DNA of 64,000 nt from Allobosea sp. UNC402CLCol. GTDB lineage: Bacteria; Pseudomonadota; Alphaproteobacteria; Rhizobiales; Beijerinckiaceae. Made by a program: the position numbers and the translations under genes. This document shows positions 38,083 through 42,614 of this stretch, piece after piece. Location of the stretch: positions 806,001-870,000 of the forward strand of contig NZ_JQJJ01000009.1 in the NCBI RefSeq assembly GCF_000745475.1. Direction: 5' to 3'. The first letter of the stretch is position 1; every line of letters begins with the position of its first letter. Below the pieces are notes generated by a model. The model saw nothing but the letters and a program-made list of their open reading frames with translations, was not told the DNA's origin and did not search any database.

Positions 38083-38112
38083 TTGACAGGCGATGCCCTT
38101 TGGCTACTAGAT
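38083..38112 (+). promoter_or_regulatory. Likely nrdA promoter
   Basis: A perfect -35 TTGACA at 38083-38088. A -10-like ACTAGAT lies at 38106-38112 after about 17-18 bp. The expected start site is at about 38118, just before the riboswitch. Confidence 0.5.
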
Positions 38113-38114
38113 CT

Positions 38115-38293
38115 GGTGGTCGATGGTCTCTCGAATCGCAAGATCGAGAGCTAAGAGGGAAGCCGGTGAGAGACCGGCGCTGCCCCCGCAACTGTAAGCG
38201 GCGAGTTCACGTCCACGATTAAGTCACTGAGGCTGCAAGGCCTTGGGAAGACGGGACGAGAGCGCTGACCCGCGAGCCAGGAGACCTGCCGCG
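38115..38293 (+). promoter_or_regulatory. Cobalamin (adenosylcobalamin) riboswitch
   Basis: All main consensus blocks are present in order: closing helix strand GGTCTC (38125-38130), AGAGGGAAGCCGGTGAGA (38154-38171), CCGGCGCTGCCCCCGCAACT (38174-38193) with TGTAAGCGG, the GTCACTG...TGGGAAGACGGG arm (38223-38244), and the B12-box GCCAGGAGACCTGCC (38276-38290). GAGACC (38281-38286) closes P1 with GGTCTC. It controls nrdA, 130 nt downstream. Cobalamin binding would lower expression of this B12-independent reductase. Confidence 0.93.
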
Positions 38294-38349
38294 ACCTCGT
38301 ATACGTCCTCGGGCGGGGTGTCCCGGTGGTGCGCTTGGCAGGTCGCGGC
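38283..38349 (+). promoter_or_regulatory. Riboswitch expression platform: two mutually exclusive hairpins
   Basis: GACCTGCC (38283-38290, part of P1 and the B12 box) can pair with GGCAGGTC (38337-38344). GCCGCGACC (38288-38296) can pair with GGTCGCGGC (38341-38349). Both pairings are perfect and share bases on both sides, so only one can form. The first would break P1, linking aptamer state to downstream folding. Confidence 0.6.
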
Positions 38350-38395: not shown

Positions 38396-38410
38396 CCCCA
38401 ACATTTGGGG
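38396..38410 (+). promoter_or_regulatory. Shine-Dalgarno-sequestering hairpin before nrdA
   Basis: CCCCAA (38396-38401), 3-nt loop, TTGGGG (38405-38410). The GGGG is the only Shine-Dalgarno-like element, 9 nt before the preferred nrdA ATG (38420). This hairpin would block initiation. Confidence 0.55.
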
Positions 38411-38419
38411 TTGATGCCG

Positions 38420-41335
38420 ATGTCTCTTTCCATTGAAGCCGAGCGGCCTGCCGCCGCTCCGTCAGCCGCAGAGCCGACACTGTCGAAGCTCGCTGCGAGC
38501 GAGCCCGGCTACCAGATCATTCGCCGCAACGGCGCGGTGACGCCGTTCGATCCCTCGAAGATCACCGTGGCGTTGACCAAGGCGTTCCTCGCCGTCGAAG
38601 GATCGAACGCCGCCGCTTCGCGCCGCATCCACGAAGCCGTCGCGGAGATGACAGAGCAGGTCGTCGCGGGGCTGACCCGCCGGGCCGCGACCGGCCGCAC
38701 TTTCCATATCGAGGATGTGCAGGACCAGGTCGAGCTCGCCCTGATGCGCGGCGAACACCACAAGGTCGCCCGTGCCTATGTGCTCTATCGCGAGGAGCGG
38801 GCGCGCGAGCGGGCGAGGGCGGTTGCCGAGACGAAGCCTGTCGCCTCCGCAGCTCCCTTGCTGCACATGAAGCTCCTCGACGGGACGCTTATCCCGCTCG
38901 ACGCCGGCCGCCTCGACAAGGTGGTTCGCGAGGCTTGTGCCGATCTCGACGGCGTCTCGGCCGAGCCGGTCCTCACCGAGGCGCGCCGCAACCTTTATGA
39001 CGGCATCTCGCTGGACGAATTGGCACTGGCGCCGATCCTTGCCGCCCGCACGCTGATCGAGAGCGAGCCGAACTACGCCAAGGTCTCCGCGCGCCTGCTG
39101 CTGGACAAGCTCCGTCGCGAGGCGCTGAGCTTCGTCCATGGCCGCGCCGAGCAGGCGACGCAGGAAGAGATGTCAGTGCTTTATGCCGACTACTTCCATG
39201 CCTATCTCAAGACTGGCATCGAGAACGAGCTGATCGACCCCGAACTCGGCCGCTTCGACATCGCCCGCATCGCCGCTGCCCTCAAGCCAGAGCGCGATCT
39301 CCAGTTCGACTATCTCGGCTTCCAGACGCTCTACGACCGCTATTTCCTGCATGTCCGCGGCAACCGCTTCGAGCTGCCGCAAGCCTTCTTCATGCGTGTC
39401 GCCATGGGTCTCGCCATCCGCGAGATCGATCGCGAGGGCAGGGCGATCGAATTCTACGACCTGCTCTCGTCCTTCGATTTCATGGCCTCGACGCCGACCC
39501 TGTTCAACTCGGGCACGCTGCGCCCGCAGCTTTCCTCCTGCTTCCTGACCACGGTCGCGGACGATCTCGACGGCATCTTCAAGGCGGTGAAGGACAATGC
39601 GCTGCTCGCCAAGTACTCGGGCGGCCTCGGCAATGACTGGACGCCGGTGCGCGGTCTCGGCGCCCATATCAAGGGCACCAATGGCGAGAGCCAGGGCGTG
39701 GTGCCGTTCCTGAAGGTCGCGAACGATACGGCCATCGCCGTCAATCAGGGCGGCAAGCGCAAGGGCGCGGTCTGCGCCTATCTCGAGACCTGGCATGTCG
39801 ATATCGAGGAGTTCCTCGATCTCCGGAAGAACACCGGCGACGACCGCCGCCGCACCCATGACATGAACACGGCGAACTGGATTCCCGACCTGTTCATGCA
39901 GCGCGTCGAGGCCGGCGCCGACTGGACGCTGTTCTCGCCCGATGAGGTGCCGGACCTGCACGACCTCTATGGCAAGCCATTCAAGACGGCCTACGAGGCT
40001 TATGAGGCGAAGGCAGCCGCTGGCCAGATCAAGGTCTTCAAACGGGTGAAGGCGCTCGACCTCTGGCGGCGCATGCTGACCATGCTGTTCGAGACCGGCC
40101 ATCCCTGGATTACCTTCAAGGATGCCTGCAATCTGCGCTCGCCGCAGCAGCATGCCGGCGTGGTGCATTCCTCGAACCTCTGCACCGAGATCACGCTCAA
40201 CACTTCGGCCGACGAGGTCGCGGTCTGCAATCTCGGCTCGGTGAACCTCGCCGCGCATGTCACGGCGGAGGGGCTGGATCAGGCGCGGCTGGCCCGCACC
40301 GTTAAGACCGCGATGCGGATGCTCGACAACGTCGTCGACATCAATTTCTACACGATCCCGGAAGCGCGCCGCTCGAACCTGCGTCATCGCCCGGTGGGCT
40401 TGGGGCTGATGGGTTTCCAGGACGCGCTCCAGACACTGCGTCTGCCGGCGGCCTCGGAAGGCGCCGTCGCCTTCGCCGATACGTCGATGGAAGTGATCAG
40501 CTTCCATGCGATCCAGGCCTCGGTCGATCTCGCCGCCGAGCGCGGGCGCTATCCGAGCTTCGAGGGTTCGCTCTGGTCGAAGGGCATCCTGCCGATCGAC
40601 TCGCTCGACATCCTCTCGGACGCCCGCGACGGCGATGTCGAGCTCGACCGTTCATCTACGTTCGACTGGGACGGCTTGCGCGGGCGGGTGAAGACCACCG
40701 GCATGCGCAACTCGAACACGATGGCGATCGCGCCGACCGCGACGATCTCCAATATCGTCGGCGTCTCGCAGTCGATCGAGCCGTCCTATAGCCAGCTCTA
40801 CGTCAAGGCGAACATGTCGGGCGACTTCACCGTGGTGAATGCCGGGCTCGTTCATGACCTGAAGGCGAGGGGGCTCTGGGACGAGGTGATGGTCTCGGAC
40901 CTCAAATACTACGACGGCAAGGTCAGTGGGATCGATCGCGTCCCGGCCGATCTCAAGGCGCTCTACGCCACCTCCTTCGAGATCCCGACGGAATGGCTGA
41001 TCCGTGCCGCCGCGCGCCGGCAGAAATGGATCGATCAGGGCCAGTCGCTGAACCTCTACATGGCGCAGCCCTCCGGCCGGAAGCTCGACGAGGCCTATCG
41101 CCTGGCGTGGCGGCTCGGCCTGAAGACGACCTATTACCTGCGCGCGCTTTCGGCGACCCATGTCGAGAAATCGACGCTGAAGGGCACGGACGGTAAGCTC
41201 AATGCGGTCTCGGCCACCGTGCCGGTCGCAGCCAAGGCCGCCGCGCCGATCATCGTCGACATACCCTTGGAGAACGGCATGGCCGTCCCCAACGCCTGCT
41301 CGCTCGACGATCCCACCTGCGAAGCCTGCCAGTAA
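38420..41335 (+). CDS. nrdA: Ribonucleoside-diphosphate reductase, alpha subunit (class I, two ATP-cones)
   Basis: Catalytic subunit reducing NDPs to dNDPs, 971 residues. N-terminus has two ATP-cone allosteric domains: about 31-125 ([20 protein letters not shown]) and about 148-235 ([20 protein letters not shown]). The ten-stranded barrel has Cys374 ([10 protein letters not shown]), the active-site triad Asn586, Cys588 and Glu590 in SSNLCTEI, and Cys603 in [10 protein letters not shown]. The C-terminus ends DPTCEACQ, the CxxC that re-reduces the active site. ATG 38420 is spaced 9 nt from GGGG; ATG 38414 is an alternative. Upstream is a cobalamin riboswitch; downstream is nrdB. Confidence 0.95.
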
Positions 41336-41357
41336 CCCGCCGTCATTCCACCTCTCG

Positions 41358-41462
41358 CGTCATTCTCGGGCGAAGCGAAGCGCAGACCCGAGAATCTCCG
41401 GCAGGACAAGGCGTTGGAGCCTCCTTCGGCACGAGATGCTCGGGTCAAGCCCGAGCATGACG
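41358..41462. repeat. Intergenic palindromic repeat, copy E (inside nrdAB)
   Basis: CGTCAT (41358-41363) to ATGACG (41457-41462), with ATTCTCGGGC...GACCCGAGAAT and ATGCTCGGG/CCCGAGCAT hairpins. An extra partial CGTCATTCC lies at 41341. It separates nrdA from nrdB and ends 27 nt before the nrdB start. Confidence 0.85.
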
Positions 41463-41489
41463 CCCCTTCATTTCAGAACGGAACACCTC

Positions 41490-42614
41490 ATGCTCGACTG
41501 GTCCGACACCAAGCCCTCGATCCCAGCTAACCCCACCATCCTCGCCAACACGCCCGCCGCCGACGCCACCGGCCTCGGCGCGATCGACCGCAATGGCGGG
41601 CGCGTCACCGTCGACGAGAAGCGCATGATCAATGCGCGCGCCGACGTGAACCAGCTTCTGCCGCTCAAGTACAAATGGGCCTGGGAAAAGTACCTCTCCG
41701 GCTGCAACAACCACTGGATGCCGACCGAGGTCTCGATGCAGGCCGATATCGCGCTGTGGAAGTCGAAGGACGGGCTCAGCGAGGACGAGCGGCGCATGCT
41801 CAAGCGCAATCTCGGCTTCTTCGCGGCGTCCGAATCTCTCGTCGCCAACAACATCGTGCTGGCGATCTACCGACACCTGACCAACCCGGAATGCCGGCAG
41901 TACCTGCTGCGTCAGGCCTTCGAGGAGGCGATCCACACCCACACCTTCCAGTACATCGTCGAGAGCCTCGGGCTCGACGAGGGCGAGTTGTTCAACATGT
42001 ATCGCGAGGTGCCCTCGATCACCGACAAGGCGGCCTGGGCGCTGAAGCACACGCAGAACATCGAGGACCCGGACTTCAAGACGGGAACGCCGGAAAACGA
42101 CCAGGCCCTGCTGCGCGACCTGATCACCTTCTACGTGATCTTCGAGGGCATGTGGTTCTACACCGGCTTCGCGCAGATCCTGTCGCTCGGCCGGCGCAAC
42201 AAGATGGTCGGCATCGCCGAGCAGTACCAGTACATCCTGCGCGACGAGTCGATCCATCTGAACTTCGGCATCGACGTGATCAACCAGATCAAGATCGAGA
42301 ACCCGCATCTCTGGACCAAGGCCTTCCAGGACGAGGTCCGCGGCATGCTGCGGGAAGCCGCAGAGCTTGAGGCTGCCTATGGCCGCGATACGATGCCGCG
42401 CGGCTTCCTCGGCCTGAACGCGGCGCTCTGCGAGCAGTACATGCACTTCATCGCCAACCGCCGCTGCGCCCAGCTCGGCCTGCCGCCGGTCTTCGGCGAG
42501 ACCGAGAACCCGTTCCCCTGGATGAGCGAGGCGATGGACCTGAAGAAGGAGAAGAACTTCTTCGAGACCCGGGTGATCGAATACCAGAACGGCGGCGCGC
42601 TCAGCTGGGAGTGA
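41490..42614 (+). CDS. nrdB: Ribonucleotide reductase beta subunit, subclass Ic-like (Phe at radical site)
   Basis: The 374-residue ferritin-like cofactor subunit that generates the oxidant for NrdA. Metal ligands by spacing: Glu115 ([10 protein letters not shown]), Glu146 and His149 ([10 protein letters not shown]), Glu219 (VIFEGMWF), Glu253 and His256 ([10 protein letters not shown]). Two features depart from class Ia. The first ligand is Glu instead of Asp, and the residue four after His149, the radical Tyr of E. coli (Tyr122), is Phe153. Chlamydia trachomatis NrdB shows exactly this pattern and uses a Mn(IV)/Fe(III) cofactor without tyrosyl radical. The C-terminal Tyr (VIEYQNGG) needed for radical transfer is kept. 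Cotranscription with nrdA is likely, but a palindromic repeat intervenes. Confidence 0.94.

Follow-up and report, generated by a model that had tools for sequence, protein, structure and literature searches.

A subclass Ic-type ribonucleotide reductase operon behind a cobalamin riboswitch in Allobosea sp. UNC402CLCol, probably a B12-independent reserve for NrdJ

Class Ic ribonucleotide reductases are described as occurring mainly in extremophiles and pathogens, and the accessible text of a 2014 review treats the reason for the evolution of a Mn/Fe cofactor as an open question (PMC4118035). The same text gives Glu in place of Asp as first carboxylate ligand as a class Ic feature (PMC4118035). 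For the R2 protein of Saccharopolyspora erythraea there is a 2.4 Å serial-crystallography structure, 6y2n, whose report in its available portion gives no subclass or metal assignment (PMC7467353). In Propionibacterium acnes, a cobalamin riboswitch precedes nrdAB and NrdJ is encoded in the same genome, an arrangement by which, as the excerpted report proposes, B12 would turn nrdAB down (PMC3848588). The regulatory logic of a B12 riboswitch on nrdAB beside NrdJ is, on that excerpt, already known from P. acnes. As far as the available texts of the literature searched go, neither a class Ic enzyme under a B12 riboswitch nor a metE-nrdAB pair with two riboswitches is described, and older comparative B12 surveys may list such operons. 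The part of the present locus worth following is the B12-gated, metE-linked setting of a class Ic enzyme.

The window, by which we mean the whole stretch of 64,000 nucleotides that was analysed, contains the following features:

38106..38307, plus strand: cobalamin (B12) riboswitch aptamer, a full-length match (1-189) to RF00174 by Rfam cmscan
From 38276, plus strand: B12 box GCCAGGAGACCTGCC, within the RF00174 match
38396..38410, plus strand: short hairpin CCCCAA-CAT-TTGGGG, seen in the sequence, its GGGG run immediately preceding the start of nrdA
38414..41335 (ATG at 38414 or 38420), plus strand: nrdA, large subunit, with ATP-cone, lgN and barrel domains (Pfam, NCBIfam)
41490..42614, plus strand: nrdB, radical-generating subunit of the subclass Ic type (Glu115, Phe153), from the frame, profile matches and alignments

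The nrdB gene is an intact open frame of 374 aa with an ATG start, and its product matches PF00268 (Pfam) and the NCBIfam NrdB equivalog NF005550, the latter with 681.7 bits against a cut-off of 309. Positions 115, 146, 149, 153, 219, 253 and 256 read E, E, H, F, E, E and H. The six metal ligands that the earlier note had picked out (Glu115, Glu146, His149, Glu219, Glu253 and His256) are therefore the residues claimed, in the translation and in alignment. The note had also put a Phe where other NrdB proteins carry the radical tyrosine, and our alignments with C. trachomatis and other NrdB sequences agree, with no Tyr at that position: Phe153 pairs with the Phe of EEAVHTHTF in both C. trachomatis R2c (4d8f, 1syy) and S. 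erythraea R2 (6y2n). Its equivalence to E. coli Tyr122 is drawn through the chlamydial, S. erythraea and Tyr-type homologues together with a numbering that we take as given, as we do the chlamydial residue numbers (presumably E89, F127 and so on). The first ligand, E115, is Glu and not Asp, again as proposed, and close Tyr-type homologues carry Asp in the same column.

Beyond the metal site, W76, Y248, D252 and Y365 are the equivalents of the chlamydial radical-path and electron-entry residues that we take, partly by assumption, to be numbered W51, Y222, D226 and Y338. With F197 included, these equivalents are identical in 115 of 115 Glu/Phe rows, and 56 of 56 close Tyr-type rows share them, a count that leaves out L090-L117, most of which (though not L091 and L096) duplicate other loci. 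Because the close Tyr types share these residues, they indicate a complete path and do not separate the classes. As a sequence assignment, the placement of NrdB in subclass Ic is well supported, and this part of the note's Chlamydia-type reading stands; the oxidant or iron-limitation part, taken up below, is not supported. Two other identities were rejected. The best R2lox model reaches 56.5 bits against a cut-off of 194, the C-terminal radical-path Tyr that R2lox lacks is present here as Y365, and nrdA lies directly upstream; and the protein has F153, whereas class Id NrdB, according to the available text of PMC8463856, retains the Tyr at the radical position.

We considered how the Glu/Phe pair is distributed among relatives. 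In 203 aligned NrdB rows, some of which are one gene fetched twice, 132 have Glu/Phe, 67 Asp/Tyr, 4 Glu/Tyr and none Asp/Phe; the 4 Glu/Tyr rows are a distant R2 type of about 29% identity. Both major states occur inside NF005550, which provides an internal control in the same columns. The pair is thus a fixed, linked state and not a chance substitution. A scan of genome contigs found at least 588 stretches encoding a relative, of which 80 were kept, and all 80 are Glu/Phe, as are four haloarchaeal plasmid sequences. The enzyme type occurs in many bacteria that are, by record title, mostly Hyphomicrobiales of groups associated with soil and plants, and the closest six among the matches listed are titled Bosea (93-96% NrdB identity). 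In a sample of 199 genomes of the order, NF005550 is over cut-off in 19, and the 18 NrdB proteins besides the window's own read Glu/Phe; within the window's genus, a class Ic NrdB is present in 8 of 25 genomes, its own genome counted. The contig relatives and the order sample may share genomes, and their counts are never summed. Glu/Phe NrdB is common in this lineage, not rare.

Several individual loci depart from the common pattern. A distant NrdB with Glu as first ligand and Tyr at the radical site occurs at L118-L121 (genomes G175, G146, G112 and G075; family f51) and is possibly another class I subtype; NrdJ is only weakly matched in three of these genomes, the match in G112 being at E=0. 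Aquamicrobium zhengzhouense contig Scf_9 carries a second Glu/Phe NrdB (L060:6001-7113) without nrdA upstream, which differs from the L058 copy at 31 of 371 residues and has a weak cobalamin riboswitch match (40 bits) downstream. An 87% identical copy in a contig titled Acidobacteria MAG ZC4RG22 (L076) is nested among Hyphomicrobiales in the tree, and the contig is probably wrongly binned. On Sinorhizobium meliloti plasmid p_3 (L231:4001-4159), the match covers the last 53 NrdB residues only, with no annotated gene and with transposase genes nearby.

In a quick tree built on all columns, the Glu/Phe rows (51 of 98) lie on one side of a branch with SH-aLRT 96. In a more careful tree of 65 rows from which the three trait columns were removed, the best topology needs 2 changes, and 20% of 200 bootstrap trees show a single Glu/Phe origin. 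By the AU test, neither one Glu/Phe clade (p-AU 0.547) nor a placement of close Tyr types inside it (p-AU 0.344) is rejected. In both trees L183, L184 and the S. erythraea sequence group together, next to alphaproteobacterial rows, which speaks for horizontal transfer.

The large-subunit gene lies directly upstream of nrdB, and its product matches PF02867 (634 bits), PF00317, PF03477 and NF005544 (1691 bits, cut-off 965). The list of open reading frames has the gene start at 38243, within the riboswitch, and this start is probably wrong. The RF00174 match scores 130.4 bits against a gathering score of 31.5, recurs at the same place in a whole-genome search and ends about 105 nt ahead of nrdA. 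A cobalamin riboswitch precedes nrdA in 75 of 76 scorable relatives, 71 by the B12 box and 4 more by Rfam where the B12-box pattern missed it (L022, L024, L044 and L069); at the one exception, L039, neither a B12 box nor an Rfam riboswitch lies ahead of nrdA. Scorable loci are those with nrdA present and more than 400 nt before it, which 76 of the 80 relatives have; L023, L062 and L067 have too little DNA before nrdA, and L060 has no nrdA. In the order sample, a B12 box stands at nrdA in 17 of 18 other loci, in addition to the window's own riboswitch, and L213 has an Rfam riboswitch downstream of nrdB with none before nrdA. The 41340-41470 gap between nrdA and nrdB holds inverted-repeat-like stretches, recognized by eye, e.g. 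'gctcgggtcaagcccgagc', looking like a dispersed intergenic repeat.

Tyr-type loci fall into two groups in this respect. Rfam finds a cobalamin riboswitch in 0 of 22 close Tyr-type loci and in 8 of 11 distant ones, where by position it sits just before nrdA (L196 being the least sure). The B12-box pattern, which like the NrdR-box pattern is a motif that we take as given, hit 0 of 33 Tyr-type loci and missed 4 of 75 true Glu/Phe cases. Rfam finds no riboswitch before nrdA at L183 and L184, two Glu/Phe loci that lie outside the class. The idea of the riboswitch as a mark of subclass Ic was rejected on the 8 distant Tyr-type matches; it may track NrdJ as main enzyme, not the metal.

Between riboswitch and start codon, the leaders share a further element. 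Adjacent to a start codon, 67 of 72 leaders carry CCCC...GGGG, whereas 200 shuffles averaged 2.3 and never exceeded 7; the pattern had been picked after the same leaders had been inspected and after a stricter test. That stricter test (a perfect stem of at least 5 pairs within 40 nt upstream of the start) is weak, succeeding in 19 of 71 leaders and in about 13% of shuffles, and the whole leader folds no better than shuffles (z -0.73). A loose NrdR-box pattern was found in 2 of 70 leaders and not in the window's, and promoter and terminator scans gave results at chance level. The hairpin would fit a translational off-switch.

The genomic setting places this operon beside a B12-dependent enzyme. 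The window's own genome encodes a full B12-dependent NrdJ (C11:698872-702603), a search for class III NrdD in it found none, and it has four other cobalamin riboswitches, of which three precede putative cobalt/cobalamin transport genes (judged by eye) and the fourth scores 43 bits. In the order sample, 181 of 199 genomes have NrdJ over cut-off, and 19 of 19 with class Ic NrdB match it at E=0; NrdJ is the standing reductase of the order. The B12-independent partner in the neighbourhood is metE, the gene for the methionine synthase that needs no B12 and the most frequent known neighbour of nrdAB in the neighbour clustering (37 of 107 loci, the family having been confirmed by Pfam on one member). 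Across the order, metE is over cut-off in 20 of 199 genomes, in 12 of the 19 with class Ic NrdB versus 8 of the other 180 (Fisher p 8e-10, a value that overstates independence because the genomes are related). In 11 of the 12 genomes with both, metE is found less than 10 kb from nrdB on the same contig; G148 carries them on different contigs. Among the 80 contig relatives, 24 loci include metE, 20 of them with its own B12 box, and a Methylocella tundrae plasmid has the metE-nrdAB pair too.

Closer to the window, a congener (G014) has an intact divergent metE/nrdAB pair with a B12 box on each side, and in the near relatives L011, L016 and L017 metE survives at this site in fragments only, beside intact nrdAB; no full metE was found in the window's own genome. 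Another congener, G002, has one large subunit of the NrdA/NrdJ type, the class Ic NrdA (L232, G002:C46), with the B12 box before nrdA kept, and no NrdJ was found in its assembly of about 70 contigs (completeness 100%). The assembly may lack NrdJ; otherwise the switch operates in a cell dependent on the class Ic enzyme. In G029, which has neither class Ic nor a strong NrdJ match, metE adjoins a different class I reductase (L240, G029:C23:423-6074; NrdA identity 29%); here the pairing recurs with another enzyme. The CbiC/CobH marker occurs in 14 of 19 class Ic genomes and 149 of 180 others, and a test for a link to loss of B12 synthesis showed none (CbiC absent in 5 of 19 versus 31 of 180, p 0.35). 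Among genomes with both metE and class Ic, 5 of 12 lack CbiC, versus 31 of 187 (p 0.044), a weak result in a subset chosen post hoc.

We consider it likely that this nrdAB encodes a subclass Ic reductase that serves as a B12-independent reserve for the B12-dependent NrdJ. The reading builds on four observations: the residues of NrdB, the RF00174 match before nrdA, the genome's own NrdJ and the metE link in relatives. When cobalamin is plentiful, it would bind the riboswitch in the nrdA leader, and the CCCC/GGGG hairpin would then mask the ribosome-binding site. With nrdAB predicted to be off under these conditions, NrdJ would supply deoxynucleotides. Under cobalamin or cobalt shortage, the leader would open and NrdA and NrdB would be made; NrdB would then react Mn(II)/Fe(II) with oxygen to form a metal-centred Mn(IV)/Fe(III) oxidant, which may start catalysis through Trp76 and Tyr365, with no tyrosyl radical. 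Some observations count against a reserve role: the riboswitch occurs at 8 of 11 distant Tyr-type loci and is lacking before nrdA at the Glu/Phe loci L183, L184, L213 and L039, and G002 keeps its B12 box with no NrdJ detected, which is odd for a reserve enzyme. Class Ic genomes also mostly keep CbiC, the window's own genome lacks a full metE, and the strict hairpin test is weak.

We lean, with some reservation, towards a broader picture in which metE and class Ic nrdAB, each riboswitched, form a mobile 'B12-independence island' of Hyphomicrobiales that is gained and lost together on an NrdJ background, its Mn/Fe reductase being conditional, for cobalt or B12 shortage. If this is true, the reason for Mn/Fe becomes testable in one cell, against NrdJ and against the Tyr-type version.

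The earlier note had suggested that such an enzyme in a free-living alphaproteobacterium points to tolerance to oxidants or iron limitation. On such a reading the B12 switch would be a side detail. It seems unlikely to us that the Mn/Fe enzyme is kept for this purpose. Published proposals, as given in the excerpted review (PMC4118035), hold R2c to be suited to iron limitation and resistant to NO and peroxide, and one neighbourhood hints at iron: on a Phyllobacterium zundukense plasmid (L218), nrdAB lies between iron and haem ABC genes, upstream, and metH. Against this, the nrdA leader is a cobalamin riboswitch in the window as in 75 of 76 scorable relatives, the genome has NrdJ, and the commonest known neighbour is metE. 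Five further recurrent neighbours, the subset of clusters checked by Pfam, are a TetR regulator, an ScfRs-type regulator, a CobW-type GTPase, a FecCD transporter and a Rieske oxygenase, with no manganese-import or oxidative-stress gene among the five. The oxidant or iron-limitation story is not supported and should yield to B12 independence.

We also weighed the idea that the residues mislead about the cofactor and that the Phe-type NrdB uses another metal pair in vivo, di-iron or di-manganese. Class I cofactors are highly varied according to the available text of PMC8463856, and the 2014 review, as excerpted, stresses that ligands by themselves do not reveal the metals and states that in vivo Mn/Fe binding had been shown for no R2c (PMC4118035). 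Set against this, all residues tested match C. trachomatis R2c, which the same excerpt describes as highly active only with Mn/Fe (PMC4118035), and we regard a different metal pair as improbable. That the enzyme is a relict or redundant, recently acquired, little used and heading for loss, is very doubtful: its patchy presence in the genus (those 8 of 25 genomes), its plasmid location in Phyllobacterium, Methylocella and Aureimonas and the 53-residue leftover on the Sinorhizobium plasmid would fit, but the ligands and Phe are kept in 80 of 80 relatives read, even where the adjoining metE has decayed, and in G002 no other reductase large subunit of its family was detected.

The Hyphomicrobiales that carry this operon offer workable hosts for asking when a class Ic enzyme serves and which metals fill it in cells, and the locus carries a warning that class Ic need not imply stress tolerance.

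Among known systems, the class Ic NrdB of C. trachomatis (R2c; 1syy, 4d8f) shares with the window's protein the six ligands with Glu first, the radical-site Phe and the tested radical-path residues, at 58% identity; the window's genome adds NrdJ, and its operon a B12 riboswitch. S. erythraea R2 (6y2n) is nearer in sequence, with 86% identity over 338 residues and the same Glu/Phe, in an actinobacterial host. Tyr-type NF005550 NrdB proteins of other Pseudomonadota, at 58-70% identity, have the same ligand frame and the same C-terminal Tyr. In contrast to the window's protein, the close Tyr types (56 of 56 rows) have Asp as first ligand and a radical-site Tyr, preceded by Ala or Ser, and their loci lack a cobalamin riboswitch in 22 of 22 scanned, unlike the window's nrdAB. 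In regulation, the window's nrdAB belongs with operons of the B12-riboswitch type, having the riboswitch in the nrdA leader and NrdJ in the genome, with a predicted lowering of expression by B12. Streptomyces is said to control a class Ia nrdABS operon by a B12 riboswitch. On the partial accounts at hand, the nrdAB operons of P. acnes and Streptomyces likewise combine a cobalamin riboswitch with NrdJ, but both belong to actinobacteria and the Streptomyces enzyme is class Ia, whereas the window's operon joins this arrangement to an NrdB of subclass Ic type.
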